A DNA stretch of 30,750 nucleotides from a virus, in the IMG/VR virus record IMGVR_UViG_3300027631_000085, positions 1 to 30,750 of that record; one strand, 5' to 3'. A program made the translations under genes and the position numbers. The notes under the pieces were generated by a model, which ran no database searches, had not been told where the DNA came from, and saw only the letters and a program-made list of their open reading frames with translations. Positions 9,432 through 30,083 of this stretch are shown here, piece by piece. The first letter of the stretch is position 1. Each line of letters opens with the position of its first letter.

Positions 9432-12400
9432 GTGGTAAAAGCATTAGAAAATATTTTTGGAGGAGAACCTACATTGAATTCGTATGATGGTATGGGTCAA
9501 TATACCAGCTTTATAGACGGAGGCGGCGGAGGAGGGGGAGGATATACCCCACCGGTAGAACCAAATCCAACATTTATTCCACCAACATATTCAAATGAAA
9601 TTGTAGGAAAGTCTATTAAGATAAATTTAATATCTAATTCAGGCGAAGTAGAATTTTTAGAAAATGGTGTATCAAAAGGATATGGTATAAATACTACTAT
9701 TAACTATTCACCATCTACTACGTTTAATAGTTCTAAAAAATACGAAGTATCTAAAACCGGACAAAAATCAACCAAATATTACGAAGTTTCTATTAAGAAA
9801 TCGTATCAAAGTGAAGATACCATTGCACAAGATAGTCCTTCTACTCCGTTAGTGCCCGTAAGGCGTGGATTTTTTGGTAGATTGAGAGATAGATTAGATA
9901 TCCAACCTGTAAAAAATACATTATTTGGTGGATTATTTGGTAAATCTAAAAAGTTTAAAGTTAAAACTCCATTAAATATTAAACCGGTTACCAATGCAAT
10001 AGAATATAACTATTCGGAAATACTTTCGGTACAAGAATTTGATTTACAATCCGATGGTACTTATAATGCAACTAATACTCAAACATACGAAATTGGTTCG
10101 ATAAGTTTAAATTTTGAATTAACAGCCATAAAGGCATCTGATGAAATTAAGGTTGTTACTGAATTAGAATATGAAGTAGCATTTTCATCAAACTTTAGAC
10201 AAGAATTAGCAAATAATGTAATATTAAATTATACAATATTTCAAAATGATGGTACTATATCAGATAGTGGAAAATTATCTTTAGCTGATAGTAATATTAT
10301 TAGAAAAATAAATTCAGATGCTTTAAAGGGTAGAGTTGATTTTAAAATAGAGTATGTAAATAAGCCGACAGAATATAGTTTAATAAACATATATCAAACA
10401 ACCAATACTGCTAAATTAGCAGAAGCTGGTCCTAATTCTATCGATTTTAACCAATGGAGTAATCAAAATTCATCATTCTCTTTACCAGCTGAACAACTTA
10501 AATCTGGCATATCTGTTGTTGTTTTATTTGAAAAGGAGATAAATGTAGATAGACCTATTATCAACTTAGATACTACTCAATATAGTGTACAGGTAAAAGA
10601 TTCGGATGTAGAAAGAGAAATATATGTTCCATTCAAAGTATCTAATACCGATAACGTAAGAGTATATATAGATGGTAGAGCTGATACAATATTAGTTCCA
10701 TCTTCGGCTGGATTTGTAACCTTATATTTTAAGAAAGATTTTTCCGAAGTATATGGTACTAAAAAAATAGTATTAGTTGCCGAAAGTAATAAATATGGTA
10801 CAGGTGATTCGGTAACAGCGTTAATTACATTTACAGCCGTAAATGATTTTCCATCCATTACCGAAATAACATTCGCAGATACAATAGATGTACCATCATT
10901 TTCTGATTTAAATATAGATTTAACATATGAATACTCTTCTTTTGCAACTTCAACAATAGATGTTGATTTAAAAGCAAACGATGGTAGTAGAATATCATTA
11001 TTCAAAAGTTTAACGCCAAACGGAAATATCTCTATAAATTTAAAAACATTAAGAGATAAGTTTTCTAACTGGTCCGGAAATGATGGACTAAGTTTAATAT
11101 TTAAACCTTTCAATAGAGCAGGTTCGGAAGAATTAATAGGTAATGAATATGAAATAAAAACCCAATTAGTTTTACCATCTATTCAGATAGATGAAAATAT
11201 ATTTGGAGCAGCAATGTTCGATTCATTCTTATCTCAATTGCAAATTATTGAGCCGGAGAAAGAAAGTAGATATCTAACGCATCTTGCTAATTTTGATAAT
11301 AATGAACAAATATTAATATCAACTTGGGAAAATGATAATTTTACATTATCATCGAAGGTGCAAGATGAATTGGGTAATACTGTAATTAAAGATGAAGTAA
11401 ATAGTATTTTACTAAAATTATACGAACCAATTCCAACTAACATTGTACCAAATACAACGTTTTGGATAACTAAATTAATGGCTAATCCATTAGTTGAAAC
11501 TATCGTACTAGCAGACCAAGCTAATTTAAAATGTCCACCATTAAAGGGACCAAACTTTAATGTAGATGTGGATTATACAATTGGAAATTCAACTAATTTT
11601 GAATCATTAGATAATTTAATTCTTAGTTCATCGGTATCATCTTCCGCACAATTAATATCAACGTATTTAAGTGGTTCTACGTTTAATAATGATAGTTTAA
11701 ATATAGAATACACAGATGGTTCAACATATTTATGGAATAATTTTGTTCATTTTAGTTCAGCCAAAGAGAGAGTTGATAACTTTTTATATAAAGTTCAATT
11801 AATAGAAGCATATGATGGATTAATAGCATCCGCATCTACTGATATTACTAATACGGGGTTTATTAATTCTGTAGCTAATCAGCAAGAATTAGAAAGACAA
11901 TCTACAAAAAAGAATCAACTTGTAAATGGATTTGATGGATTTGAAAAATTCTTATATACATCATCATCCGCATACACTACAAATAATGGTAGTTCTATAA
12001 CTTGGCCTTACAATAATGGTAATAGAATATCATCAAATGATACATCTAGCGTTTTACCTTGGTATAATAATATTATAGAGTTAGCAACCATATATGATAA
12101 CAATAACCAAAACTATATATTAAACAATATACCACAATATATTGTATCCGATGAGAATAATGATAGTTTATTATTATTTTTCTCAATGATTGGTCAACAT
12201 TTTGATTCAATTTATTATTATACAAAATCAATCGAAAAAAGTAGAGGTTTAGGTTATAAACAAACGGGAGGAATATCAGATAAACTTTTATTTGATGCAT
12301 TAAAATCATTTAGTTGGGATGCAAAAAATTTAGATGCAGATTCAAAATTATGGTCATATGTATTTGGCCAAACGAATGGTGAAACCGAACTTAATCCTAC

Positions 12401-14717
12401 AAAACAAAGAACAAATGAAGTATGGAGAAGAATTGTAAATAACATACCATATTTGTTAAAACATAAAGGTACTAGGCGTGGTGTTTATGCCTTATTAAGT
12501 TGTTATGGTATCCCTTCATCAAATCTTTCAATTTTAGAATTTGGTGGACCGGAAGTAACGGAAACAACTAAGAGTAAATTGGTATATGATAACATTACTA
12601 CTGCTCTTAAATTTAATAGTAGTGCTTATATTTCTATGGGTTGGAAAAACACCAACAAACTTAGAAAACCCGATACAATAGAATTATTTGTAAAACCAAC
12701 TACGGCTGGCAAATATCGTATTATTGATGGGGATAATAGTATGGCTTTATGGCTAAGTGGTAGTGTGGGTGATGAATATGGTAAAGTTAAATTTACATAT
12801 TCTGGTTCAAATGATTTGGTAAATACAATATCTTCATCCTTATTGCCAATATTTAATGATAAATTCTTTGGCATTGAGATTAGTAGAACATTAAACGCTT
12901 CTAGTAGTAGTTTTGAATTAAATGTAAAACAATCCAATAAAGAAAAGACTATATTTCAGGAATCAATCTCAGCTAGTGTTAGTAATGTACTATCCGATTG
13001 GGAAAATGGTACTATTTTAGAATTTGGTAATGGATTTGTAGGTAGTTTAGATGAATTCCGTATATGGAATACGCCATTGGATAAAGAAAGATTTTACGAA
13101 CACGTTTCATTCCCCGAAATGATTAATGGTAATAGTATTTCTGCATCAACTACCGATTTATATTTCCGTTTAGATTTTGAATATCCAAAAAACTTAGCAG
13201 TATCGCAATCTTTAATAAATGTTGCGAATAATATCTTTTATCCTAAAAATTTTGTAAGAAATCAATTTGAAGAAACCGGAAGTATTGTAAATGTAATATC
13301 AACACTAAATGCACCAATAAGTGCATCTGCTATTGGATTTACACCATCTACATCATATCCTTATAATTTTGAAACGATAGATAGAAGTGTTGTATTGGAG
13401 ATACCTGATATGGGTTCAACGAGATATTCAACTAATAAAGTTAGATTCGAATCTCAAACCGATTTTAGTGGAAATGATGTAAGTGGTGGTGTTGATTTAT
13501 CTATAAAAAGTAGAGCAACTAAAAAAGCATTTGACCAATCTCCAACCGATTCAAATAGAGTTGGATTATTCTTTTCTCCTACAAAAGAATTGAATATTGA
13601 TATTGCAAAATCATTGGGTGGAATTAATTTAGACAACTATATTGGCGACCCATCCGATAATTATAAATCAAATTATTCAAATTTAGATAGTTTAAGAAAT
13701 TATTATTTTGAAAGATTTGATGGTAGAGATATTTACGCATATATTAATCTAATCAAACTATATGAGAAATCTATGTTTGAGGATATTAAGAATATGTTAC
13801 CAGCAAGAGTTAAAGCAACTACTGGTCTATTAATTGAACCACATATTTTAGAAAGAAGTAAGATTGAACAAAAAAGACCTACGGCTGATGATTATCAAAA
13901 AGAGGCAAATATAAAATATTCGGATACAACTAAATTAATAGCAGATTCAAATCAATATCTTGCTACAATAAATTCAGATTTATCAGAACAATTGATTGCA
14001 GAAAATAATCAATATAGTGCTACTATATACACTGCATCATTACAAACGACAACCGCTGATAGTTATCAAATTGAAGCTAAATACGATTATGATGCCGAAA
14101 ATGATATATCATCCGAATATTACCAAAAAGAAATTACGATAAACGCAGGATTGGGGAATCCATCTATATTGACGGAAATTGATATATATGATACAAATAC
14201 CATTGTTGGACAAAGTGTATATGAAACTGTAGGATTTGGTATTTATGCACAAAGTGGTTCTGCTATTAGAACTTATTTTGATAAAGAAGGTAGACGAGTT
14301 AAAGAACGAATTAGAATACAATTGGTAACCGAACAAAAGGAAAGAGTTGTAACTAAATTTGCTGTAACCGCATCTGCTACGGGAATGGGTGACCCGCGTG
14401 GGGGATATGTTTCGGATATTCAAACATATAATGAAACTACATTAAATATTCAACCATTTTCGGGTTCAATAGTACCAATCATTGGAGGTAATATAATCGA
14501 TATTAAAAATGTTGATGGATATTTATCAACTCATTACAGAAATACAAACGATTTAACGAGAGGAATGCAAAACTCATTCTTTAGAGGTTCAAAAAATACA
14601 GCAGCAACAACATTGGATGGTTCATCTCCAATTGAAACATTTACTTCTAATCCTAATACATTGAAGGTAAATAAATCTGGTAGAGATGCGAGTGAACCAA
14701 TTTTGGAAGTAGAATAA
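9432..14717 (+). CDS. Giant tail/baseplate protein with LamG-like domain and 19-residue repeats
   Basis: 1761 residues. The start is a GTG; an in-frame TAA lies 6 bases upstream and the next ATG is 20 codons in. Eight Gly (30-37) and a Pro-rich stretch follow the N-terminus, then several beta-rich, fibronectin/Ig-like modules (about 60-560). Residues about 890-1045 include NIPYLLKHKGTRRGVYALL, a pattern resembling P2 gpI-like tail proteins and one I recall from large virion proteins of T4-like phages. Residues about 1055-1250 look like a concanavalin/LamG lectin fold (ISMGWKNTN, then GFVGSLDEFRIWNTPLDKE). Five 19-residue repeats occupy 1485-1579. The C-terminus (FFRGSKNTAATTLDG) looks conserved in this protein type. 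It probably links baseplate to fibres and may contact cell-surface glycans. It has its own upstream motif. Confidence 0.7.
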   Translation: MVKALENIFGGEPTLNSYDGMGQYTSFIDGGGGGGGGYTPPVEPNPTFIPPTYSNEIVGKSIKINLISNSGEVEFLENGVSKGYGINTTINYSPSTTFNSSKKYEVSKTGQKSTKYYEVSIKKSYQSEDTIAQDSPSTPLVPVRRGFFGRLRDRLDIQPVKNTLFGGLFGKSKKFKVKTPLNIKPVTNAIEYNYSEILSVQEFDLQSDGTYNATNTQTYEIGSISLNFELTAIKASDEIKVVTELEYEVAFSSNFRQELANNVILNYTIFQNDGTISDSGKLSLADSNIIRKINSDALKGRVDFKIEYVNKPTEYSLINIYQTTNTAKLAEAGPNSIDFNQWSNQNSSFSLPAEQLKSGISVVVLFEKEINVDRPIINLDTTQYSVQVKDSDVEREIYVPFKVSNTDNVRVYIDGRADTILVPSSAGFVTLYFKKDFSEVYGTKKIVLVAESNKYGTGDSVTALITFTAVNDFPSITEITFADTIDVPSFSDLNIDLTYEYSSFATSTIDVDLKANDGSRISLFKSLTPNGNISINLKTLRDKFSNWSGNDGLSLIFKPFNRAGSEELIGNEYEIKTQLVLPSIQIDENIFGAAMFDSFLSQLQIIEPEKESRYLTHLANFDNNEQILISTWENDNFTLSSKVQDELGNTVIKDEVNSILLKLYEPIPTNIVPNTTFWITKLMANPLVETIVLADQANLKCPPLKGPNFNVDVDYTIGNSTNFESLDNLILSSSVSSSAQLISTYLSGSTFNNDSLNIEYTDGSTYLWNNFVHFSSAKERVDNFLYKVQLIEAYDGLIASASTDITNTGFINSVANQQELERQSTKKNQLVNGFDGFEKFLYTSSSAYTTNNGSSITWPYNNGNRISSNDTSSVLPWYNNIIELATIYDNNNQNYILNNIPQYIVSDENNDSLLLFFSMIGQHFDSIYYYTKSIEKSRGLGYKQTGGISDKLLFDALKSFSWDAKNLDADSKLWSYVFGQTNGETELNPTKQRTNEVWRRIVNNIPYLLKHKGTRRGVYALLSCYGIPSSNLSILEFGGPEVTETTKSKLVYDNITTALKFNSSAYISMGWKNTNKLRKPDTIELFVKPTTAGKYRIIDGDNSMALWLSGSVGDEYGKVKFTYSGSNDLVNTISSSLLPIFNDKFFGIEISRTLNASSSSFELNVKQSNKEKTIFQESISASVSNVLSDWENGTILEFGNGFVGSLDEFRIWNTPLDKERFYEHVSFPEMINGNSISASTTDLYFRLDFEYPKNLAVSQSLINVANNIFYPKNFVRNQFEETGSIVNVISTLNAPISASAIGFTPSTSYPYNFETIDRSVVLEIPDMGSTRYSTNKVRFESQTDFSGNDVSGGVDLSIKSRATKKAFDQSPTDSNRVGLFFSPTKELNIDIAKSLGGINLDNYIGDPSDNYKSNYSNLDSLRNYYFERFDGRDIYAYINLIKLYEKSMFEDIKNMLPARVKATTGLLIEPHILERSKIEQKRPTADDYQKEANIKYSDTTKLIADSNQYLATINSDLSEQLIAENNQYSATIYTASLQTTTADSYQIEAKYDYDAENDISSEYYQKEITINAGLGNPSILTEIDIYDTNTIVGQSVYETVGFGIYAQSGSAIRTYFDKEGRRVKERIRIQLVTEQKERVVTKFAVTASATGMGDPRGGYVSDIQTYNETTLNIQPFSGSIVPIIGGNIIDIKNVDGYLSTHYRNTNDLTRGMQNSFFRGSKNTAATTLDGSSPIETFTSNPNTLKVNKSGRDASEPILEVE
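9519..9542 (+). repeat. Eight consecutive Gly codons
   Basis: Codons 30-37 of the giant gene (GGA, GGC, GGG mixed) encode eight Gly followed by Tyr-Thr-Pro-Pro. This mirrors the hinge at the end of the upstream protein. Confidence 0.9.
13884..14168 (+). repeat. Five tandem 19-residue repeats
   Basis: Residues 1485-1579 of the giant protein split cleanly into five 19-residue units starting ADDYQKEA, ADSNQYLA, AENNQYSA, ADSYQIEA and SEYYQKEI. A conserved Gln at position 5, and Tyr at 4 or 6, mark each unit; the rest is degenerate, so the DNA repeat is old. Confidence 0.75.
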
Positions 14718-14764: not shown

Positions 14765-15388
14765 ATGGGATATTTAAGTAATACAGAATTGACTGTTGAT
14801 GCAATTCTTACCAAAAAAGGTAGAGAAAAATTAGCAGCAGGACAAGGGTTAAACATCACTCAATTTGCTTTAGCAGATGATGAGATTGATTACACACTTT
14901 ATGAACCAGCACACCCAAAGGGTTCTGCTTTTTATGATTCGGCAATTAAAAATATGCCAGTTTTAGAAGCTAATCCCGATGAAACGCAAGTAATGAAATA
15001 CAAATTGGTAACCTTACCTAAGAATACAACTCGTATTCCTGTGGTTGAGTTTGGTATTCCTAATATTGCAGTTAATCAAAGAAGTGGTGAAGTTTCACTT
15101 TCTCCAACAACATCTCCTGCCGGAAATAGAAGAATGGGTTATACCATTATACTATCTAATAAAAACGCTGGTGATATAGTAGGTGAAGGCGTTAGTGCGG
15201 ATGTGGGTACAGTGCCAGTATTTATTGGTGATGATGTATCTGCAACGGCAGCAATCGCTAAAGGATTATCTTTCAAATTTATTCCAAACCCATCATTAAC
15301 TTCGACTATCAAAACAACTATAACTGTTTATGGTAACGAAACGGGTGGTTCACAAACAATTCCGGTAACCGTAACATACGTTCAATAA
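14765..15388 (+). CDS. Virion structural protein of marine T4-like phage type
   Basis: 207 residues. The N-terminal third has ILTKKGREKLAAGQG followed by FALADDEIDYTLYEP and a HPKGSAFYD turn. I recall this pattern from an uncharacterised structural protein of T4-like cyanophages; that is from memory, not a search. The C-terminal half is a beta-rich, Ig-like domain (residues about 100-207) with no Cys. It is the first gene of a two-gene unit ending at the terminator at 16640. Its place in the particle is unknown; a tail, neck or fibre-anchoring part would fit. Confidence 0.65.
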   Translation: MGYLSNTELTVDAILTKKGREKLAAGQGLNITQFALADDEIDYTLYEPAHPKGSAFYDSAIKNMPVLEANPDETQVMKYKLVTLPKNTTRIPVVEFGIPNIAVNQRSGEVSLSPTTSPAGNRRMGYTIILSNKNAGDIVGEGVSADVGTVPVFIGDDVSATAAIAKGLSFKFIPNPSLTSTIKTTITVYGNETGGSQTIPVTVTYVQ

Positions 15389-18227: not shown

Positions 18228-18644
18228 ATGGCTAAAAAAGTTACAAAAAAGAGTAATCCAAAATGGGTTGCTAAAAAATATGGATTTAAGTCTGGTTTAG
18301 AAGAAACCATATCAAAACAAATAGAGTCCAAAGGAATTGTTGTAGAATATGAAACTGAAAAAGTTCCATACATAATTCCAGCATCAAACCACACATATAG
18401 TCCCGATTTTAAATTACCCAATGGTATTAGAGTAGAGACAAAGGGTAGGTTTGTAGCAGCCGATAGGAAAAAACATTTGTTAGTTAAGGCTCAAAACCCC
18501 AATTTGGATATACGATTCGTATTTTCCAACTCTAAGAACAAAATCACAAAAAACTCCAAAACCACATACGCAGATTGGTGCGATAAAAATGGTTATAAGT
18601 ACGCAGATAAGGAAATACCGGATTTATGGTTTTTAGAACCATAA
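18228..18644 (+). CDS. T7-type endonuclease I (Holliday junction resolvase)
   Basis: 138 residues, near the 149 of T7 gp3. It cuts branched DNA such as Holliday junctions, clearing replication and recombination intermediates before packaging. It matches T7 endonuclease I along its length, including ESKGI, KVPYIIPASNHTYSPDF, LPNGI-VETKG and DRKKHLL. The four catalytic residues are present as Glu25, Asp60, Glu70 and Lys72, each offset by exactly 5 from Glu20, Asp55, Glu65 and Lys67 of T7. The N-terminus is Lys-rich. T4 uses the unrelated endonuclease VII (gp49) for this step, so this is a swapped module. It sits just upstream of primase and the gp46/47 fusion. The family match is strong from memory of the T7 sequence. 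Confidence 0.93.
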   Translation: MAKKVTKKSNPKWVAKKYGFKSGLEETISKQIESKGIVVEYETEKVPYIIPASNHTYSPDFKLPNGIRVETKGRFVAADRKKHLLVKAQNPNLDIRFVFSNSKNKITKNSKTTYADWCDKNGYKYADKEIPDLWFLEP

Positions 18645-18683: not shown

Positions 18684-19625
18684 GTGTTAAGTAATAATGA
18701 TAAGAATAAGGTAATTAATGCCCTTACTAATGTATTGGGCCATGGTCTTACGTTGAGAGGCAACGAATTGGCATTTCACTGTCCATTCTGCAATCATCAT
18801 AAGCCGAAACTCCAAGTCAATACCGAAACTCAAAAGTGGCATTGTTGGACTTGCAATAGTGGTGGTAAAAAACTGACATCTTTACTTCGTAAATTAGATG
18901 TAGATAGAAAAACTATATCTCTTATTAGAGAAATCTATGGCGATAGTAATTGGACACCACAACAAGAAGATGCTGAAACAAAGGTATTCATCCAACTTCC
19001 AAAAGAATTTATTTCATTAGCAGAAGAAGCAAAGGGATTTAACCCAGAATATAAACATGCTATGTTTTACCTTACTCAACGAGGAATTGGTATAAAGGAA
19101 ATAGTTAAATATAATATTGGATATTGCAAAGATGGATTATATAGTAGGAGAGTTATTATCCCATCATATGATTTAAATGGTCAATTAAACTACTTTGTTT
19201 CTCGTTCATATTATTCTGAAGAGAAGATGAAATATAAAAATCCACCAATCAGTAAAAATATAATAGCATTTGAATCGCAAGTTAATTGGAATGAACCAAT
19301 TATATTATGTGAGGGTGTATTTGATGCAATAACAATTAAAAGAAATGCTATCCCATTATTGGGTAAGTTCCCATCGAAACAATTAGTTGAGAAAATATTT
19401 ATGAGTGGAGTTACTGATATCGTTATTTCATTGGATAATGATGCTATTAATGAAGCACTTAAAGCAGCTGATTATTTCAGAAAGCAGGGAATATGTGTAA
19501 AGATGATGTATCTTAGAGATAAAGATGCATCGGAAATGGGTTATACAAATTTTTATGAAGAACTAAAGAAAACTAAAGAGTTTTCATCCGAAGAATTACT
19601 ATTAAGCAAAATAAATAGTTTATGA
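18684..19625 (+). CDS. DnaG-type DNA primase (gp61-like role)
   Basis: 313 residues. It would make RNA primers for lagging-strand synthesis with the phage helicase. A zinc ribbon has Cys33-x2-Cys36 and Cys54-x2-Cys57. A TOPRIM domain follows, with Glu210 in the LCEGVFDAI segment and Asp251-x-Asp253 in SLDND. It is short for a bacterial DnaG and has no fused helicase domain. The start is GTG: no in-frame ATG precedes the zinc ribbon, and an in-frame TAG lies at 18669. The Bacteroidota-type promoter ends 4 nt before it, implying a leaderless mRNA. Its TGA overlaps the ATG of the next gene (ATGA), so primase and the recombination protein are coupled. Confidence 0.9.
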   Translation: MLSNNDKNKVINALTNVLGHGLTLRGNELAFHCPFCNHHKPKLQVNTETQKWHCWTCNSGGKKLTSLLRKLDVDRKTISLIREIYGDSNWTPQQEDAETKVFIQLPKEFISLAEEAKGFNPEYKHAMFYLTQRGIGIKEIVKYNIGYCKDGLYSRRVIIPSYDLNGQLNYFVSRSYYSEEKMKYKNPPISKNIIAFESQVNWNEPIILCEGVFDAITIKRNAIPLLGKFPSKQLVEKIFMSGVTDIVISLDNDAINEALKAADYFRKQGICVKMMYLRDKDASEMGYTNFYEELKKTKEFSSEELLLSKINSL

Positions 19626-22600
19626 AAAGATTAAAAACAATCTACCACATTGCCGATGTACATATTCGTAATGTACAAAGACATAAAGAGTACAGAAAAG
19701 TATTTGAAACAATGTTTGAAGAAATTCGCAAAAGAGGAACGGAAAATTCACTCATCTACTTAGCAGGCGATATTGCACATGCTAAATTGGAATTATCTCC
19801 TGAATTAGTTAGAGAGATAAGTTGGTTATTTACAGAATGTTCTAAACATTGTGAAACAATCCTTATTACGGGTAATCACGATTGTAATATGAATAACTCC
19901 GATAGATTAGATGTACTTACTCCAATCGTAGAAGCATTAAACTTACCAAACTTTACATATTTAAGAGATACTCAAATATATTCTATTGGTGGAATTGATT
20001 TTGGCGTGTTTAGTATCTTTGATGATAAAAAGAATTGGCCAAAAGCTGATACATTATCGGGCAATAAGAAGATTGCTTTATTTCACGGACCCGTTGATAA
20101 TTCACAAACCGATGTTGGATATGTAGTATCATCTCGTCATTTCACTACCGATATGTTCGATGGATATGATTTGGCTCTATTGGGGGATATTCATAAAAGA
20201 CAAACTATGATTTCACCAAGCGGATGTAAAGTAGTTTATGCTGGTTCATTAGTACAGCAAAACTTTGGTGAGAGTTTAAATGGACACGGATTTTTAGCTT
20301 GGGATTTAGATTCTATGAAATATGAGGCAATTGATATTCCAAACGAATATGGTTATTATACATTGGATATCGATAATGGTAAAGTTCCAATTGTAACCGA
20401 TATGCCAAAGAAGCCTCGTTTAAGAGTTCGTTTATCAAATACGGATTCGGCTGATACCAAAAAAGTAATTACTGAAATTAAAATGAGATATGGTGTAGAA
20501 GATTTCACAATCATCAGAACCGACTCATTTAATAAGCAAAAGACTGGCAATCGTTTGAGTAAATTAGATTTTGAAGATGTAACGGATATTAATCATCAAA
20601 ATACATTGATAAGAGATTACGTTCAAAGAATGATGCCGTTTACAACTACCCCAGATTTGGATGCGTTGGAAGTTATCAATAGAGATATCAATAGTAGAAT
20701 AACGCAAGAAGAAATACATAGAAATATTCATTGGAAACCTATTAAGTTTACATTCAGTAATATGTTCTCATATGGTGAAAAAAATAAAATTGATTTCCAA
20801 AAGATTGGTGGATTGATGGGATTATTTGCTCCAAATGCAGCCGGTAAATCTTCTCTATTTGATGCGATATCATTTTGTTTATACGATAAGAGTAGTAGAG
20901 CTTATAAGGCTCAAAATATTATGAACAATCGTAAATCGGATTTCGAATGTGAACTACATTTTCAAGTAAACGGAATCGATTTCTATATTAACAGAACCGC
21001 TAAAACAATTAACAAAGGAAAGAACGTTAAAGTAGATGTTCAATTTTGGAAAGAAGAGGGTGGAGTTAGAACATCTTTAAATGGTACGGAACGTAGAGAT
21101 ACAAATGCCGTAATTGAACAATATGTTGGTAAGTATGAAGATTTCGTATTGACTGCTCTATCGTTGCAAGGCAATAACTCTATATTCATTGATAAATCGC
21201 AAAGTGAGAGAAAGGATTTGCTTGCTCAATTTATGGGATTAAATGTTTTTGATAAATTATATGAAACAGCTACCGAAGATATTAAAGAAGTAGCAGTTCT
21301 TATTAAGAACTTTAAGAAAACCGATTTCACATCCGAATTAGCTGAAAAAGCATTAGAGAAACAAACTAAAAAATCCGAATTAAGGGGATTAGAAAAAACC
21401 TTAGAAAGTAGGTCAATTGATGTAACCGACTTATCTGATAGAATATTGGGATTAACAAAAGAGTTGGTGCCAGTAGATGGTAATTTAGATTTAGAAACAT
21501 TAGAAAAGAAAAAAAACGATATTGGTAGAGATATATTGCACGTACTTTCGGAAGAGAAAATTAAAAAAGGAAAGTTAGATGAATATACCGAATCTATATC
21601 TGAAATTTCAAAATCGATTGAAGAAAAGAAATATATCAATGAGCAACCAATTGAAGAAGCTAAAAAGGAATGGGATGTATTGAAGGGTGAAATTAATAAC
21701 ACCGAAAGATATATCGCATTAGTAGAACAATCATTGGAATCTAATAGAGAAAAACTTACACATTTGGCTCAGCACGAATATGACCCGAATTGTAACTTTT
21801 GTATGAACAATGTGTTTGTAAAGGATGCAAAAGAAACCGAACAAAGAGTTGAAGAGCAAATAGCTGATTTAGAAGAAATGCATGGTAAATTAAATTCGTT
21901 AATTAACCAAGCAAGCCGATTAGCAGATGTTGATGAGCAATGGGATGATTTGGTTGAGTTAAAATCTAAATATCAGAAAGCAATTGTAATCAAAGAAAAA
22001 ACTATTGCAGAATTAAACGGATTTACAACTCAACAACAATTGTATGATAATCAGTTGGAACAAGTTAAAGCTGATATTCAAAAATATCACGATAATGAAG
22101 ATACTATTAAACGTAATAAACAAATAGAATCGGTAATTACTGGGTTGAATAAAACTAAAAGTGAAATTGAATCGGAAATCAAATCAATCAATAAAGATAT
22201 TGCAGGATTAAATGGCTCTATTTCTTCATTAGAATCGTTTATAGAGGGGATAAAGCAAAAGATGGGTGATGTTAAGGACTTGGAAGAAAAGAACCGACTA
22301 TACACCTATTATTTAGATGCTGTGAAGCGTGATGGAGTTCCATATGAATTGATTTCTAAAGCAATGCCAGTTATTGAAAATGAAATCAATAATATATTAG
22401 GACAGGTTGTTGATTTTAGTATTGTAATGGATATTGATGGTAAGAATATCAATGCAAAGATTGTTTACGAAGACCAAGAATGGCCGTTGGAGATGTGTAG
22501 TGGTATGGAGAAGTTTGTAAGTGGATTAGCAATCAGAGTTGCTCTAATCAATATATGTAACTTACCTCGTCCAAACTTCTTAGTAATTGATGAAGGATTT

Positions 22601-22768
22601 GGTACATTGGATGCAAATAACTTATCATCACTATTTATGATGATGCAGTATTTGAAAACTCAATTCGATTTCATTTGGATGATTTCTCACTTAGAACAAA
22701 TGAGAGATATCGTAGATGGATTAATAGAGATAAAGAAAGTAGATGGATTCAGTAAAATTGATTTTTAA
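19622..22768 (+). CDS. Fused Mre11/SbcD-Rad50/SbcC recombination protein (gp47-gp46 fusion)
   Basis: 1048 residues. Residues about 1-345 are a metallophosphoesterase with Asp12-x-His14, Asp50 in GDIAH, Asn85-His86 in GNHDC, His155 and His191 in GDIHKRQ. From about 360 on is an SMC-type ATPase: Walker A GLFAPNAAGKSS (Lys409), long coiled coils either side of a zinc hook (Cys724-x2-Cys727), an ABC signature (CSGMEKFVSG), Walker B VIDE (Asp990-Glu991), a D-loop (GTLDANN) and an H-loop (MISHLEQ). In T4 these are two proteins, gp47 and gp46, that resect DNA ends and start recombination-dependent replication. The fused chain is longer than the T4 pair together (about 900). All key residues are present, so it is probably active. 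Both ends overlap neighbours (ATGA, TAATG). Confidence 0.93.
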   Translation: MKRLKTIYHIADVHIRNVQRHKEYRKVFETMFEEIRKRGTENSLIYLAGDIAHAKLELSPELVREISWLFTECSKHCETILITGNHDCNMNNSDRLDVLTPIVEALNLPNFTYLRDTQIYSIGGIDFGVFSIFDDKKNWPKADTLSGNKKIALFHGPVDNSQTDVGYVVSSRHFTTDMFDGYDLALLGDIHKRQTMISPSGCKVVYAGSLVQQNFGESLNGHGFLAWDLDSMKYEAIDIPNEYGYYTLDIDNGKVPIVTDMPKKPRLRVRLSNTDSADTKKVITEIKMRYGVEDFTIIRTDSFNKQKTGNRLSKLDFEDVTDINHQNTLIRDYVQRMMPFTTTPDLDALEVINRDINSRITQEEIHRNIHWKPIKFTFSNMFSYGEKNKIDFQKIGGLMGLFAPNAAGKSSLFDAISFCLYDKSSRAYKAQNIMNNRKSDFECELHFQVNGIDFYINRTAKTINKGKNVKVDVQFWKEEGGVRTSLNGTERRDTNAVIEQYVGKYEDFVLTALSLQGNNSIFIDKSQSERKDLLAQFMGLNVFDKLYETATEDIKEVAVLIKNFKKTDFTSELAEKALEKQTKKSELRGLEKTLESRSIDVTDLSDRILGLTKELVPVDGNLDLETLEKKKNDIGRDILHVLSEEKIKKGKLDEYTESISEISKSIEEKKYINEQPIEEAKKEWDVLKGEINNTERYIALVEQSLESNREKLTHLAQHEYDPNCNFCMNNVFVKDAKETEQRVEEQIADLEEMHGKLNSLINQASRLADVDEQWDDLVELKSKYQKAIVIKEKTIAELNGFTTQQQLYDNQLEQVKADIQKYHDNEDTIKRNKQIESVITGLNKTKSEIESEIKSINKDIAGLNGSISSLESFIEGIKQKMGDVKDLEEKNRLYTYYLDAVKRDGVPYELISKAMPVIENEINNILGQVVDFSIVMDIDGKNINAKIVYEDQEWPLEMCSGMEKFVSGLAIRVALINICNLPRPNFLVIDEGFGTLDANNLSSLFMMMQYLKTQFDFIWMISHLEQMRDIVDGLIEIKKVDGFSKIDF

Positions 22769-23502
22769 TGTTAGTAGATAATAAATTCCTTTATATTAGT
22801 TTACCAAGATGTGCATCAACCGCATTTCAAATATCTTGTATTAAAAATAATATAAACATACAACACGCTAGAGGGTTTATCGATAACATTATATCATCAA
22901 CAAATACTTTATTAGATATTCAAACTCTAAAAGATAATACACCCCATTATCACGAATCTTGTTCAGAATTATTTGATAAATTTGGAAATAATTATGAAAT
23001 AATATCGGTAAAACGAGATAGGCATATGCGATTTATATCTTGTTGGGAACACGTTATTCACGAGCTTGAAATTAAAAACGAATATGATATTGCAAATATT
23101 TTAAAAGAATTAGATGAAAATGATATTTTATATTATACATCAAACGATATAGTGGATATTGATAGTATGAATCTAATAGTTACTTCGTTTATAAAAAAAT
23201 ATTCAATAGAACCTAAAACGGATTTTGCTAAATTATATTTACCGACTATGCTTGGTATCCAATTTAACGCAATTTCAGAATGGCATGAGCATAATCCAAA
23301 TATTATATGGTTCGATTTTGATAAGTTGTATGAATTAGAAGAATGGGTATCGAATAAATTGGGAAACCCTTTTAAATTAGAGAGATTGAACTCAAGTAAG
23401 CATATAGAATGTAACTTAAAACGTACTGATAATTTTATTAAAAAATATAATAAAATATATGATAGTTATGATTTTAGAAAAGAGAAAAAAACTTTAATAT
23501 AG
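22768..23502 (+). CDS. Sulfotransferase-like protein
   Basis: 244 residues. The N-terminal KFLYISLPRCASTAF (6-20) looks like the 5'-phosphosulfate loop of PAPS-dependent sulfotransferases. YEIISVKRDRHMRFISCWEH (76-95), with Arg83 and Ser91, looks like the 3'-phosphate-binding motif. Such enzymes move sulfate from PAPS to sugars, proteins or small molecules; the substrate here is unknown. Family members are usually about 250-350 residues, so this is compact. The ATG overlaps the stop of the recombination gene (TAATG), so it is expressed with the replication block, yet it precedes the tail fibre, where glycan-modifying genes often sit. It ends in TAG, 6 nt from the end of the convergent gene. 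The family call is by motif; catalysis is unproven. Confidence 0.65.
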   Translation: MLVDNKFLYISLPRCASTAFQISCIKNNINIQHARGFIDNIISSTNTLLDIQTLKDNTPHYHESCSELFDKFGNNYEIISVKRDRHMRFISCWEHVIHELEIKNEYDIANILKELDENDILYYTSNDIVDIDSMNLIVTSFIKKYSIEPKTDFAKLYLPTMLGIQFNAISEWHEHNPNIIWFDFDKLYELEEWVSNKLGNPFKLERLNSSKHIECNLKRTDNFIKKYNKIYDSYDFRKEKKTLI

Positions 23503-23785: not shown

Positions 23786-26700
23786 ATGGCATTAATACAA
23801 AAAACTTTATTTCCCGAAAATTTAGATAGATACAATGTATTTGTAGAAGATACAACCCCAAACAGTAGATATTTCAATATAACTGAATTACCTGATACAT
23901 TCACAGGTGGTAAAAATGCTTTTCTTATAGCTGGTGCACCTGAATTGGTAGCCGATACTTTAATAAAAATAGAAATTAAAGACGCCGCTGGGAATATTAT
24001 ATATCACGAGCCTGGCGAAGGTAGTATGATAACTACCATAAATGGCGACCAATTTACAAGTGAATATTATGAAGGGGTATCTAAAGTTGTATCCGTATAT
24101 GTGTACCCAGGCGATACTGCATACGGGCCGTGTACAATTACAATTTTAGGAGAATTAAGTTCATATTATGATAATAATGGATTAGTATCACCTATACCAT
24201 TAAATTGGGAAGGACAATATAATGTTAAGTGGCAAAAAACTATTAATGTAAATCCTACATTAGCAAATACCACTAAAATACGTTTTTATAGAAGACCAAG
24301 CGTATCTATTAATGAATTAATTTCACCGGTTTATAGAATAGAAAGTGGTTTAAAAATAAATACGGGAATAAACCAATCGTTTGCCAATATCAAATTATCA
24401 AATTTAGAAACTTTTGCCGGAGATGTTAAACGTATAAAAGTTTTTAGAACATCATTGGGAGATATTTCTGATTATGATATGATTCAGGATATATTAGTTG
24501 AATCAAAGGAATTATTAACATCATATGATTTAAGTGGTAGTGTAGTTGGAAATACGGGAACATTAACATCTGAAACTTTTAAAAGTTATTGGAATACTGG
24601 TTCATTAAATGCTACATTAGATTCGACTAGAGTTGAAGCAGGCGTAAAATTAAAAGGAGCGGGTAATTTTACATATTCCGCATCTTTGGATTTAAAAAGT
24701 ACAAATACTTACGAATTAAATTTAGATGCATTTTATTCAGCATCAACTCCAAGTAATTTAGGAATATACATATTATCAGGCTCAACAAGCAGTAGTATTG
24801 GTACATTAAATGGAATTAGCCCAACTAAAAATTTATTAGATACAACTATTCCATTTAAACTTGATAAAGAGTTTTCTCCCGCTACTTTATATTTTTCACA
24901 ATCACAGGGAGAATGGAATTTAGGAAATATTAGTTTAAGGCTATCGGAAGATACCGCATTTTCGCCAGATGAAGTTTCATTTGTAACAACAATGCCAACT
25001 GTTGTTGGTAATGAAGATTATAATTTCAAATTTGAATTTTATGATGTAAATAATAATTACGTTCCGGTTATGGTTACCGGAAGTGCAAATTTTACGGGAG
25101 GTTCAAACGCTATTACAAAATTATTAACATTTGAATCGGATAGAACGGCATTTCGTTTTAGTACAGGCTCATATGCAAACCCACCAAATCAAAATGTAAA
25201 ATTTAAAACAATAAAAACAAATTTTACAGGCTCAATAACATATGCATCATCCGCATTTGATGTTGGTGGTACTTATATTACACCAGCTTCGTATGCAGGA
25301 ACTTATCCTGGTTGGTTTACATCACAAAATGATAATGGTGCGCTTTTAAGTATTGCAAGTTTTAGTGGAAGTGTTAGTAGTGTATTAGTTGGTTCAATTG
25401 TATATACTGCATCGTGTGAAGGATTTGAAGAATATGAAACCATATATAGATTTGAGGATGGTGATAATGCACCCGGTGTATTTGTAACGGCAAATACTAA
25501 TCAATTCATTTATAAAGCAACCGATTTATCATTAAATCCAACGGGGCAAGTTATTACAATAGAAGCTAAACGTAAAAACTTAGCATCAGCAACAACTCCA
25601 TTAACTGTAAATTCTGGAAGTGGAAAACCACCATTGACATTGGTATCTACGAATGCAACAAATGGAGTAGATACTTACACATTAGCCGGCTCAACATATC
25701 CATTTGGAACGAATGAAAGTATTTATTATATATCAGGTTCAGACCAATTTGGTAACCAATTTTCAGATGCAATTAAAATAACACCTGTAAAAATATTAGA
25801 TGGGTTTTCAATTGGAGCAAGTAATGAAAATACATCATTTCCTGCTAATTCAGTTGGTTCAGTAATTGGTGGGTTTGCTGCAAGTAGTGGTTCTATAACA
25901 GTTAAAGTTGGTAATGAAGATATAAGTTATGCATCTCCTATTGCAAATAATAAATTTAGTGCAAGTATTTCATCAACCTCCGGATTAACCGCAAATACAT
26001 TTAACGGAACAAACTATTCGATAAATGCTTTAAGTGCAGATAGTGGTTCTTTAACTCTATTAGTAAAATATCAAGATGGAGGCGGAACTATAATAAGTTC
26101 TTCAAAAGAAATAACATATTCAAAAGTTAAAAAAGCTGCACCAGTTTTAAGTTTCATAGTTGGTAACAATACTCAAGTAGTTACTGCAAAATCAACGGGT
26201 GCACAAATTGATTCATTTGTAACTGCAAATTTATCAGTAATCGAAACATATGATGGTGTTAGTTCTACTAAAACATTAACTGCGGCACCTACTACTACGG
26301 CTACAAATTCATACACAATTGGTGCTAAAACGGCTACCACAATTGCGTTACCAAATATGGCAAATGGTACGGATTCGGTTGATATAACAATAGCAGGTTC
26401 AGTAGTTGATTCGGAAAATACAACAAGAAATGTTTATGGTAGTATATCATTAGCAAAAACCAAAAAAGCAGTACCAAGCGTAAGAATATCGGCAACTCCA
26501 CAATCTCAAACTGTTGCAGCAAATGCAGCTGGTACGCAAACCGGCGCATTGGCAAATGTAACAATAAGTGCTTTAGAAGGAACTACCGATAGATTTACAT
26601 CAATGGTAATTCAAGGAACACCCGTTGGATTTTCAACTGCTCCAACTGTTAGTGGTGCAACGTTAACAATGACATCGGCTATTATGAACGCAGATGAAGC

Positions 26701-29608
26701 ATCGGTAACATTGACTGTAACTCATACAGATAGTGAGGGTACTACGGGGCAAACTCAAACAATAACAATACGAGCTTCTAAAATAAAGCAAGGAGAAAGT
26801 GGAGTAGTTGTAAACTTAAATCCGGCATCACAAGTTGTTACAAGAAGTAATACGGGAACATACGGAACACCAGCCACATTTGTAGTTAGTGTTGTTGAAG
26901 GAGCTACTACATATACATACGATGGTACATCGCCATATGCAGTATCTACATTTAGAATATCAGATTTAGTTGGTGGAACAAATAGTAACGGAACAATTAC
27001 ACCAACTACCCCAACAACAATATCCGGTACAATCGTATCATTTAATGTTATATATGCTAATGCAGCTGGAACATCAGTAACAATTCCACAAACTCATAAA
27101 GTATCGGTAACATTGGATGGGCAAACCGGACCTGGAGTTGTTTTTACAGGAAATTGGGAAACAGGTAGAGCTTATCAATTTAGTGCAGGAGCAGGGACAG
27201 GTCGTAGAGATGTTGTTCTTTATCCAGCTAGCTCAGCAGGAACATATTATGCAGCAACAGTACAACATACATCGACTCCAACCGGAGTAACGGGCCCACC
27301 AACAGTTGGTACTTATTGGGAATCATTAGGAGCACAAGATTTCTTTGTAGCAGCTAAAATTGGTTTATTTGAAGATTCGTATGTACAAAGTACATTAAAT
27401 ATTGGTAGTAATAATAATGGTGGAGTAAGTACTGCAAATATAACACTCGCAGGCGGTACTGCGTATCCATATTTTTCATTAGGACAAACTACCGCTGGTG
27501 TATATAATGCTACCGGTGTTTTTATAGGCGCTATTAGTGGTAGTACTAATACGGAATATAAAATGTCATTAAAGAGTGCTTCCAATTCACTTTTATGGGA
27601 TGGTACATCTTTAACTATAAATGGTGCTGGTACATTTAGTGGAGCACTTAGTGGTGGTACAATTTCAATCGGTAGTGGTAATAGTATTTTTAGAGCCACA
27701 ACCGATGGTATTTGGTTAGGAAACGCAGTATTTGCAGATGCACCATTTAGTGTGAGTGCAGCTGGAGCTTTAAAAGCAACTTCCGCTAATATTACGGGAG
27801 TAATTAATGCAACATCTGGTAATTTTAGCGGCCCTATAACATCAACTGCAACAATAACGGGTGGTACTATAATTGGGGGTTCTATTACGGGGGGTATAAT
27901 TACGGGAGGTAGTATAGTGGGTTCAAATTTGGCTGGAGGTACTATACATGTACCAAATGCAACGAATCCGGTATTTGAAGTAAACTCGGCTGGTATAATG
28001 ACCGCAACAAATGCGGTTATTAGCGGGCAAATAACGGCAACATCGGGATTGTTAGGTAATTGGGTAGTTGACCCACCGGCGGCTGGTGGTTCTTTGAAAG
28101 ATAATACTGGTAGAATTGTTTTAAATCCAACTGATAAGAGGATATCAATGTTCAATTCATCAGGTGAATTAAAAGCTCAAATTAACGCAGATGATACACT
28201 ATCTTCAATTGGGGCAGGTAACATTTATGTATATGGTATTGGAAACGATACTAGTGCCCCTTCCGGCCCCACTTCGGATGCAGGAAGTTTAACGGCGGTT
28301 GTTGGAACTCCCATTTATAGTACTGCTGCAACGTTTACTATACCAACCGCTGGAGAATATCAATTATCCGAATTATTTAGTACATATTCACCACCACCAA
28401 CAATAAATTTAGCAAGTAAGGTATCTTCACTTGGTACAGTGAGTGTAAGTACGGGTAATCCATATGGCTATATTACTCCTAATTATCCAGGTGATTATTA
28501 TTCCTCAACCTCATATGGTAAGTCTATTAGTCAGACCTTATTTTTTGTTATAGAAAATGATTCAACCGGAGCTGAAATCGCCGCACTTACGGTTTCAACT
28601 GCAAACGCAAGAGGTGGATACTCAATTACTAATCAATATTACGCAAACAGTATTTCAAACACAGCTTGGCAATACATTGCGGGATATTCATCTGGCGGTA
28701 ACTCTTGGTCAAGTACTACAACACCACCAATTACTGCAGTTGTGAATTTCCCATCAGCAGGAACATATCGAGTTAGATATAAATCGGTGATGAGTGCACA
28801 AAGTGGATATCAATATTATTTAGATGGTACTACTGAAAATGGAACTTACACTTATTTTACTGTTTCTGGTATTGGTGGAGTTGCATTGAGTTCGCTTTAT
28901 GGAGCTGTTAATTTTAATAAACCAGCAAACTTTATTGAAATGTCCGGTGGAGGATTTCAAGCGGTTACAAACTCCGACCAATTTGTTAAAATAACTAGAG
29001 AAGCTCCTGGCTCAACTTATGGTGTAACCCTTTTACAAGTAGAGGGCGGACGAACTGTATTGAATCAAGATGATGCTACCGATGAGGTTTTATATGTAAA
29101 CGGAAAAAGCACATTTATTGGAAAAACTGATTTAGGTGGCAGTTTTTATAGTGGAAACTTTTATGATGCAATTGGAGCCAGCCCAAAATTACCATATATG
29201 GCTGGAATGGTTCAGCAAACTTATTCTTTTGTAAGTCCCGGCACAGCAGCAGCTCCTGAAAGTCTAGCTTATTATATATCTCAAGGTAATATGCAACATT
29301 GGTTATATTATAGTAGTAATACAAGTAGATATTACGCATTACCAAACCAACTTAGTACAGGTGCATACGAACCGGTGGGTAATAGCGCAATAAATTTACC
29401 ACAAGGTACTACATTGTTTTTATTCAATAAAAATGATGCAGCATCTGTTTTTGTTAGAGGACTTTTACCCGGCAGTACAGGTGATGGGTTTTATGAATTA
29501 CCGGGTGGAACAGGAATAATTGTAGTATATCTTGGTAGTTCTTCTATCGATGGCCCATCAATGGATTATAAATGGATTATTTATTCTCAAATTGATAATA
29601 CTTGGTAA
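23786..29608 (+). CDS. Giant tail fibre / receptor-binding protein
   Basis: 1940 residues. An N-terminal anchoring region (about 1-250, MALIQKTLFPENLDRYN) is followed by beta-rich Ser/Thr/Gly modules. Residues about 669-1110 hold four Ig-like modules of roughly 105-115 residues, joined by K-V/T/I-K linkers at about 669, 781, 893 and 998. After about 1110 comes a shaft region resembling C-terminal fibre parts of lambda J-like tail proteins (YVQSTLNIG, ATTDGIWLGN, FSVSAAGALKATSANI). Six 5-residue repeats lie at 1358-1387. The variable C-terminus (about 1430-1940) probably holds the receptor-binding tip and lacks a peptidase or chaperone domain I can name. The candidate assembly chaperone lies 13 nt downstream. 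Receptor specificity cannot be read from the sequence. Confidence 0.85.
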   Translation: MALIQKTLFPENLDRYNVFVEDTTPNSRYFNITELPDTFTGGKNAFLIAGAPELVADTLIKIEIKDAAGNIIYHEPGEGSMITTINGDQFTSEYYEGVSKVVSVYVYPGDTAYGPCTITILGELSSYYDNNGLVSPIPLNWEGQYNVKWQKTINVNPTLANTTKIRFYRRPSVSINELISPVYRIESGLKINTGINQSFANIKLSNLETFAGDVKRIKVFRTSLGDISDYDMIQDILVESKELLTSYDLSGSVVGNTGTLTSETFKSYWNTGSLNATLDSTRVEAGVKLKGAGNFTYSASLDLKSTNTYELNLDAFYSASTPSNLGIYILSGSTSSSIGTLNGISPTKNLLDTTIPFKLDKEFSPATLYFSQSQGEWNLGNISLRLSEDTAFSPDEVSFVTTMPTVVGNEDYNFKFEFYDVNNNYVPVMVTGSANFTGGSNAITKLLTFESDRTAFRFSTGSYANPPNQNVKFKTIKTNFTGSITYASSAFDVGGTYITPASYAGTYPGWFTSQNDNGALLSIASFSGSVSSVLVGSIVYTASCEGFEEYETIYRFEDGDNAPGVFVTANTNQFIYKATDLSLNPTGQVITIEAKRKNLASATTPLTVNSGSGKPPLTLVSTNATNGVDTYTLAGSTYPFGTNESIYYISGSDQFGNQFSDAIKITPVKILDGFSIGASNENTSFPANSVGSVIGGFAASSGSITVKVGNEDISYASPIANNKFSASISSTSGLTANTFNGTNYSINALSADSGSLTLLVKYQDGGGTIISSSKEITYSKVKKAAPVLSFIVGNNTQVVTAKSTGAQIDSFVTANLSVIETYDGVSSTKTLTAAPTTTATNSYTIGAKTATTIALPNMANGTDSVDITIAGSVVDSENTTRNVYGSISLAKTKKAVPSVRISATPQSQTVAANAAGTQTGALANVTISALEGTTDRFTSMVIQGTPVGFSTAPTVSGATLTMTSAIMNADEASVTLTVTHTDSEGTTGQTQTITIRASKIKQGESGVVVNLNPASQVVTRSNTGTYGTPATFVVSVVEGATTYTYDGTSPYAVSTFRISDLVGGTNSNGTITPTTPTTISGTIVSFNVIYANAAGTSVTIPQTHKVSVTLDGQTGPGVVFTGNWETGRAYQFSAGAGTGRRDVVLYPASSAGTYYAATVQHTSTPTGVTGPPTVGTYWESLGAQDFFVAAKIGLFEDSYVQSTLNIGSNNNGGVSTANITLAGGTAYPYFSLGQTTAGVYNATGVFIGAISGSTNTEYKMSLKSASNSLLWDGTSLTINGAGTFSGALSGGTISIGSGNSIFRATTDGIWLGNAVFADAPFSVSAAGALKATSANITGVINATSGNFSGPITSTATITGGTIIGGSITGGIITGGSIVGSNLAGGTIHVPNATNPVFEVNSAGIMTATNAVISGQITATSGLLGNWVVDPPAAGGSLKDNTGRIVLNPTDKRISMFNSSGELKAQINADDTLSSIGAGNIYVYGIGNDTSAPSGPTSDAGSLTAVVGTPIYSTAATFTIPTAGEYQLSELFSTYSPPPTINLASKVSSLGTVSVSTGNPYGYITPNYPGDYYSSTSYGKSISQTLFFVIENDSTGAEIAALTVSTANARGGYSITNQYYANSISNTAWQYIAGYSSGGNSWSSTTTPPITAVVNFPSAGTYRVRYKSVMSAQSGYQYYLDGTTENGTYTYFTVSGIGGVALSSLYGAVNFNKPANFIEMSGGGFQAVTNSDQFVKITREAPGSTYGVTLLQVEGGRTVLNQDDATDEVLYVNGKSTFIGKTDLGGSFYSGNFYDAIGASPKLPYMAGMVQQTYSFVSPGTAAAPESLAYYISQGNMQHWLYYSSNTSRYYALPNQLSTGAYEPVGNSAINLPQGTTLFLFNKNDAASVFVRGLLPGSTGDGFYELPGGTGIIVVYLGSSSIDGPSMDYKWIIYSQIDNTW
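27857..27946 (+). repeat. Six tandem 5-residue repeats in the fibre shaft
   Basis: Residues 1358-1387 read TGGTI, IGGSI, TGGII, TGGSI, VGSNL, AGGTI. The x-Gly-Gly-x-Ile unit puts a hydrophobic residue every fifth position, as in beta-helical or pentapeptide-type stalks. The DNA is locally G-rich (ggggg and gggggg runs), unlike its surroundings. Confidence 0.8.
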
Positions 29609-29621
29609 AAAATAAAAAATT

Positions 29622-30083
29622 ATGAATAATACTTACAAATTTGATTACGTTTATGTATCCGGCTCATTATTGGAGTGGCCGATAAATAAGAAAGAAATTG
29701 AAAAAAGAATAGAAACCGGTAGTACCGAATTCAATTCGGAATTTTTAAAATCTTATGGTTATTATGAGTTAAATAAACTCATGCCCACATCTCATTCCGA
29801 AGAGGAAACATATGATATGGATATTACTCCATATGAGAGTGGCTCTTGTTATTATTTAGGATATACTATTAGAAAAAAAACAGAAAAAGAATTGGATATT
29901 CATTATAAACATCAATGGATTACACTTAGAACAAAGAGATTAAAACTATTACAAGAAACTGATTATATGGGTAATTCCGATTATCCAATTACAAATGAGT
30001 GGAGAGAATATAGACAGGCTTTAAGAGATATAACCGAACAAGGTAATCCATTTGATATTATTTGGCCAAATAAACCGGAATAA
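29622..30083 (+). CDS. Tail fibre assembly chaperone (Phage_tail_APC-like C-terminus)
   Basis: 153 residues. The C-terminal ~60 residues match the pattern of phage tail assembly chaperones: Arg-x2-Arg-Leu-Lys-Leu-Leu-x-Glu-Thr-Asp-Tyr, then Trp-x2-Tyr-Arg-Gln-Ala-Leu-Arg-Asp-Ile, then Gly-Asn-Pro-Phe-Asp-Ile-x-Trp-Pro. The N-terminal half is specific to this phage and probably contacts the fibre. Such proteins help fibres fold and trimerise. The ATG lies 13 nt after the fibre stop, the usual fibre-then-chaperone order. The family call comes from the recognisable C-terminal phrase. Confidence 0.75.
   Translation: MNNTYKFDYVYVSGSLLEWPINKKEIEKRIETGSTEFNSEFLKSYGYYELNKLMPTSHSEEETYDMDITPYESGSCYYLGYTIRKKTEKELDIHYKHQWITLRTKRLKLLQETDYMGNSDYPITNEWREYRQALRDITEQGNPFDIIWPNKPE

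Follow-up and report, generated by a model that had tools for sequence, protein, structure and literature searches.

The window analysed here is a 30,750-base virus record from a freshwater-type phage (IMG/VR record IMGVR_UViG_3300027631_000085). At positions 19622-22768 of its + strand lies a single gene that encodes both a Mre11-like (SbcD) nuclease and a Rad50-like (SbcC) ATPase. The fusion is genuine and unbroken, and does not stem from an assembly error. Fused Mre11-Rad50 proteins are widespread in aquatic viruses, and the window protein is an ordinary member of its group. Feature by feature it fits the description of the fusions typified by Mimivirus R555 (Yoshida, Claverie and Ogata 2011; PMC3175470), of which it is a phage member. 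We give a probability of about 0.87 to the reading that this R555-type phage fusion forms a homodimer equivalent to the M2R2 complex and plays a role like that of T4 gp46/47. The protein offers, from one gene and with a fixed stoichiometry, a natural single-chain form of a complex that studies usually treat as separate subunits. The 1:1 ratio of nuclease and ATPase, emphasised in a preliminary description of this DNA, follows trivially from the single chain.

Frame, motifs and junction of the fused gene

The open reading frame (ORF) starts with ATG, ends with TAA and contains no internal stop over 1048 codons, as the preliminary description had stated. Its parts are as follows.

19622-22768, + strand: fused SbcD-SbcC (Mre11-Rad50) gene, 1048 residues in one open frame, both halves matched by Pfam and PHROG; open in 70/70 full-length relatives
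19622-20311, + strand: nuclease (calcineurin-like phosphoesterase) domain, residues 1-230; from the Metallophos match, motif conservation and AlphaFold2 secondary-structure boundaries
20183-20194, + strand: GDIH motif, with Asp where Mre11/SbcD usually has His (GHxH); GDIH in 71/71 close relatives
20312-20521, + strand: capping domain, residues 231-300; in the AlphaFold2 model strands 233-238, 243-251, 264-272 and 295-300 and one helix, 276-290
20588-20698, + strand: helix-loop-helix Rad50-binding region, residues 323-359; AlphaFold2 helices 323-337 and 343-359, block means about 90
20699-20728, + strand: interdomain linker, residues 360-369; without secondary structure, AlphaFold2 block mean 65; codon-position pattern
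20729-21316, + strand: Rad50/SbcC N-terminal ATPase lobe, residues 370-565; from Pfam, the alignment of relatives and AlphaFold2
21317-22324, + strand: coiled coil with the CxxC hook CNFC at residues 724-727 (21791-21802); AlphaFold2 helices 569-901, both Cys in 71/71
22325-22765, + strand: Rad50/SbcC C-terminal ATPase lobe; from Pfam, the alignment of relatives, profile matches and AlphaFold2

Profile searches recover both activities. Pfam Metallophos matches residues 6-192 with 39.5 bits (cut-off 21.5) and AAA_23 matches residues 377-596 with 56.3 bits (cut-off 27). The Pfam model of the SbcC Walker B region matches weakly at 957-1008, as does SMC_N at the C-terminal end. Among the PHROGs, the SbcD-like PHROG_100 covers residues 6-337 and the SbcC-like PHROG_77 residues 298-1047. 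With 989 positions in the phrog_100 model, and a phrog_77 match that starts upstream of the ATPase, both families seem, from model lengths, already to contain fused members. Solved SbcC, Rad50 and Mre11 chains are also matched, best of all 6s6v_C (E 7e-38).

The preliminary description held that all nuclease and ATPase motifs, including the zinc hook, are present. This is correct for every expected motif and for the CxxC hook, but one motif is altered. The Mre11/SbcD set DxH, GD, GNHD, H and GHxH appears as D12xH14, GD 49-50, GNHD 84-87, H155 and GDIH 188-191. The Asp that replaces the first His of GHxH is the sole departure among the nuclease motifs. The split ABC ATPase set of Rad50/SbcC is complete: Walker A GLFAPNAAGKSS at residues 400-411 (20819-20854), the Q-loop Gln 516, the hooked coiled coil, the signature SGMEK at 960-964 (22499-22513), Walker B FLVIDE at 986-991 (22577-22594) and the H-loop His 1023 (22688-22690). 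The signature reads SGMEK against the textbook SGGE(K/R).

An apparent fusion can arise when a sequencing or assembly error erases the stop or frameshift that separates two genes, and phages offer a probable precedent. Listeria phage LMTA-57 (KJ591605.1, L083:3917-6946) was deposited with a 1009-residue 'recombination exonuclease' in a fused frame over 3027 bases. Other Listeria phages match this stretch over 3028 bases, at up to 100.0% identity at printed rounding, and the annotated ones nearly all have two ORFs there. The LMTA-57 frame is likely the product of a one-base deletion joining two ORFs, and we rejected it as an independent phage fusion.

What separates such a case from a genuinely fused family is, above all, conservation across contigs. 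In place of reads, we checked the junction by the conservation of relatives and by their codon-position differences from the window. A scan of IMG/VR gave 439 related stretches, from which 80 loci were kept; 70 of these held the gene nearly end to end and were translated. All 70, on independent viral contigs at 69-100% identity, are free of stops and open through residues 340-370; when they are aligned with the window, all 71 sequences agree at the key catalytic letters. In the linker (codons 360-369), the first, second and third codon positions show 0.177, 0.076 and 0.544 differences per codon; this concentration at third positions shows that the linker is translated and constrained. The frame is also open in more distant relatives (37-43% identity) and in a second clade, whose members have 1202-1250 residues. 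We therefore reject an artefact at 19622-22768, whose probability is next to nil.

An AlphaFold2 model built from a 42-row alignment has a mean predicted local distance difference test (pLDDT) of 82.4 and a predicted template modelling score (pTM) of 0.48. Such a pTM is to be expected for a model with a long flexible coiled coil, near whose middle the CNFC hook is predicted to sit. The loop 301-316 ahead of the Rad50-binding region has low confidence (<50). In a profile alignment, residues 182-352 pair with residues 204-373 of the 379-residue Thermotoga Mre11 chain 3tho_B. Since this alignment reaches residue 373 of 379, the Rad50-binding region is retained.

Could translation also begin inside the gene, near the junction, and release a separate Rad50-like chain beside the full one? 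In-frame ATG codons do occur at 337, 338, 381 and 399. None follows a Shine-Dalgarno-like stretch, although the true start likewise has no obvious one. The pair at 337-338 is missing in the related protein of Microcystis phage Mel-JY01, and starts at 381 or 399 would cost the ATPase lobe its first strand. We consider a second product very improbable.

Relatives and origin of the fusion

R555 is a Mre11-Rad50 fusion, and twelve further ones were reported with it from bacteria, plasmids, eukaryotes and one Bacillus phage (PMC3175470). In R555 an Asp (Asp242) stands in place of His206 of P. furiosus (PMC3175470). Yoshida et al. argued that the helix-loop-helix plus a linker keeps the natural contact within the fused chain, with a requirement of 9-12 linker residues (PMC3175470). 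Homologs of R555 are abundant in aquatic viral metagenomes, probably in part from phages, and some GOS scaffolds that carry them also carry phage primases (PMC3175470).

The window protein repeats this description. Its Mre11-like domain is N-terminal and its Rad50-like domain C-terminal in one chain, an Asp replaces the His206 equivalent (GDIH), and the capping domain and the helix-loop-helix (323-337, 343-359) are retained and followed by a short linker (360-369). Like the R555 homologs it belongs to an aquatic virus distribution and, as on the GOS scaffolds, has phage primase genes nearby. The two differ in that R555 has 1351 residues and a longer coiled coil, whereas the window protein has 1048 and belongs to a tailed phage.

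Structure comparison agrees with this likeness. Foldseek against the PDB returned Mre11-Rad50, SbcCD and SMC-family structures. In a viral structure library the top matches are full-length DNA-repair fusions from Tupanvirus, Harvfovirus, Yasminevirus, Terrestrivirus and Catovirus, led by the Tupanvirus protein (25% identity, E 4e-73); phages pT24 and PTm1 rank lower. Together with the published description, the giant-virus matches strongly suggest kinship with R555.

Relatives also occur in Microcystis phage Mel-JY01, in Tenacibaculum phage PTm1 and in two huge phages known from metagenomes. The Mel-JY01 protein (WWT39521.1, PP395634.1) is one chain of 1066 residues, 42% identical over its full length. 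As in the window, a primase and a GIY-YIG endonuclease lie upstream; unlike in the window, a 174-base ORF separates primase and fusion, and the protein is annotated 'AAA domain containing protein'. A second fused clade of 1202-1318 residues comprises LR756501.1 (a 735 kb phage), the IMG/VR loci L113-L122 and Tenacibaculum phages PTm1 and pT24. It shares the domain order, the Asp-Ile-His and the single chain, but its IMG/VR members are only 24-27% identical, have longer coiled coils and, in the loci seen, lie in another neighbourhood than beside the same primase. Relatives traced from Mel-JY01 and the 735 kb phage are mostly fused, with 1043-1066 and 1202-1250 residues.

The preliminary description implied that the fusion is unusual and proposed a search for other single-chain SbcD-SbcC proteins. 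Many were found. With 439 related stretches in IMG/VR and fusions, aquatic viruses included, published in 2011 (PMC3175470), the implied unusualness does not stand. The kind is described, although most individual phage records are barely annotated, just as 'AAA domain' or 'DNA repair exonuclease'. The preliminary description had itself named a fusion common and well described in related phages as grounds for refutation. As this is largely the case, its interpretation as a whole is only partly supported.

Separately encoded pairs, namely T4 gp47/gp46 and the SPO1-, RaK2- and T5-type SbcD/SbcC, share both activities, the motif set and a nuclease upstream of the ATPase. In contrast to the window protein they are two chains, mostly with GHxH and an SxGE(K/R)-type signature where the window has GDIH and SGMEK. 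That the T4 genes are separate was rightly noted before: gene 47 is followed by 46.2, 46.1 and 46.

We built a tree from 34 rows and 574 conserved columns, joining separately encoded pairs end to end and representing the T5 type by Proteus phage Stubb. All 21 fused rows and two interrupted rows form one clade (support 100/99), with the separate pairs outside. Asp-Ile-His is common to all fused rows, whereas most separately encoded phage SbcDs have GHxH; Stubb, on a long branch, has GDLH. An SGMEK-like signature is common to the large clade of the window; in most separate phage pairs the signature is of the SxGE(K/R) type. The single clade and the shared motifs favour one old fusion among the sampled phages. 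Recurrent fusion has been proposed across a wider set (PMC3175470). These views do not directly contradict each other, because our tree was sampled by similarity to fused proteins and covers phage fusions, without cellular or giant-virus ones, and because PTm1 forms a long branch.

A narrow search of cellular contigs (one alignment scan and two peptide patterns) gave 100 pattern matches and no relative, which does not imply absence from cells. On plasmids we found partial matches to the SbcC lobes at 23-34% identity, none covering 80%.

In some relatives the gene is cut again. In L112:3313-6547, L132:2301-5553 (with its near copy L133) and L137:3474-6755 it consists of two ORFs, divided in the nuclease between the GDIH and (Y)PGS motifs; L134-L136, L138 and L140-L143 are uncut. 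The ORFs overlap in L112 and L132 (by 14 nucleotides and by a short stretch), and in L137 an in-frame stop is followed by a new ATG. Because these junctions differ, two translated ORFs are a better explanation than a programmed frameshift, which we disfavour. The short tails added in the split relatives are alike (E-x-V-[IV]-x-E-x-[DE]-[LM]-x-x-Y).

The 484 kb phage LR756508.1 (L086:5953-10178) is cut at the same point, with a 305-residue ORF in the gap that matches an HNH endonuclease (phrog_1271) and, weakly, a TnsA-like N-terminal domain. We rejected an intron as the cause, since there was no Rfam match up to E 1. Probably a homing endonuclease has inserted here and split the gene. Comparable cases are phage Aeh1, whose nrdA is split by mobE while the enzyme still works, and T4 gene 60, split by mobA (PMC2988022).

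Both interrupted rows fall inside the fused clade. We lean slightly towards the view that the phage fusions are one old viral single-chain (MR)2 lineage with its own Asp-containing metal site, re-cut inside the nuclease, probably after homing-endonuclease invasion. If so, nature would hold three forms of the same enzyme: a two-chain form, a single-chain form and one of two chains divided within the active-site region. These forms would make the need for covalent linkage testable. For the question of which covalent links are required, the re-split relatives serve as a natural experiment.

Proposed action and gene neighbourhood

Most likely, the fused chain forms a homodimer equivalent to the familiar M2R2 complex. 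Its nuclease domains would pair as in Mre11, and each Rad50-binding helix pair (323-359) would grip the base of a Rad50 coiled coil, so that the linker of about 10 residues would join parts that are already adjacent. As the ATPase heads close and open, driven by ATP, they would present DNA ends to a Mn-dependent nuclease, while zinc hooks would join the coiled coils. In the phage the enzyme would act like T4 gp46/47, trimming double-strand ends to leave 3' single strands that feed recombination-dependent replication and repair. Degradation of host DNA is perhaps an added role.

Three points weigh against this reading. The Asp of GDIH is not the residue of canonical Mre11 and may alter how metal is bound. 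The pTM is only 0.48, and we infer the packing of the Rad50-binding helices in cis on the coiled-coil base. Finally, the recombination role is proposed by analogy with T4.

Alternatively, the protein could be a regulatory or defence-type SMC-nuclease, for example one that counters defence or degrades host DNA, and not a resection enzyme. Phage SbcCD-like nucleases can degrade host DNA, as noted for gp46/47, and the fused clade is set apart by its GDIH and SGMEK motifs. This alternative has to contend with the Mre11-Rad50-like domain order, with the Rad50-binding helices and with the conserved place of the gene beside two others.

18228-18644, + strand: endonuclease of phrog_945, a conserved neighbour with a relative in 94 loci compared
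18684-19625, + strand: DnaG-like primase (CHC2 zinc finger, Toprim-like); phrog_47, Pfam Zn_ribbon_DnaG

The stop of the primase and the start of the fusion overlap as ATGA; downstream, the stop of the fusion and the following start overlap as TAATG. The conserved run is endonuclease, primase, fusion and a large ORF. Nearly every locus in the window's clade has a primase relative, and nearly every one keeps the order endonuclease-primase-fusion; most Mel-JY01-like loci keep this order too. The 1202-1250-residue clade lacks this endonuclease-primase neighbourhood in the loci seen.

A defence-type nuclease also fits poorly with a fusion that is the sole SbcC-like ATPase in most long relatives. 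Among 11 long records searched with AAA_23, 10 hold only the fused-family copy, and the 735 kb phage has three matches. Metallophos has one match in eight of these records and further ones in G002, LR756508.1 and LR756501.1, which may be unrelated phosphoesterases. On balance we regard the regulatory or defence-type alternative as improbable, and prefer the gp46/47-like resection enzyme.

Other genes in the window

Directly downstream of the fusion, 22768-23502 encodes a 244-residue protein without a library match, found in only 2 of the loci compared. Its N-terminus, LYISLPRCASTAF, looks like a sulfotransferase-type nucleotide loop. A 207-residue protein at 14765-15388 has no PHROG or Pfam match. 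Across the window-clade loci that hold it, it is 82-97% identical (mostly >90%), usually above the primase or the fusion of the same loci.

Two very long proteins, of 1761 and 1940 residues, are encoded at 9432-14717 and 23786-29608 and have no match in the libraries searched. The 1940-residue protein, which directly precedes a tail-fiber-assembly gene (29622-30083), may be a fiber.

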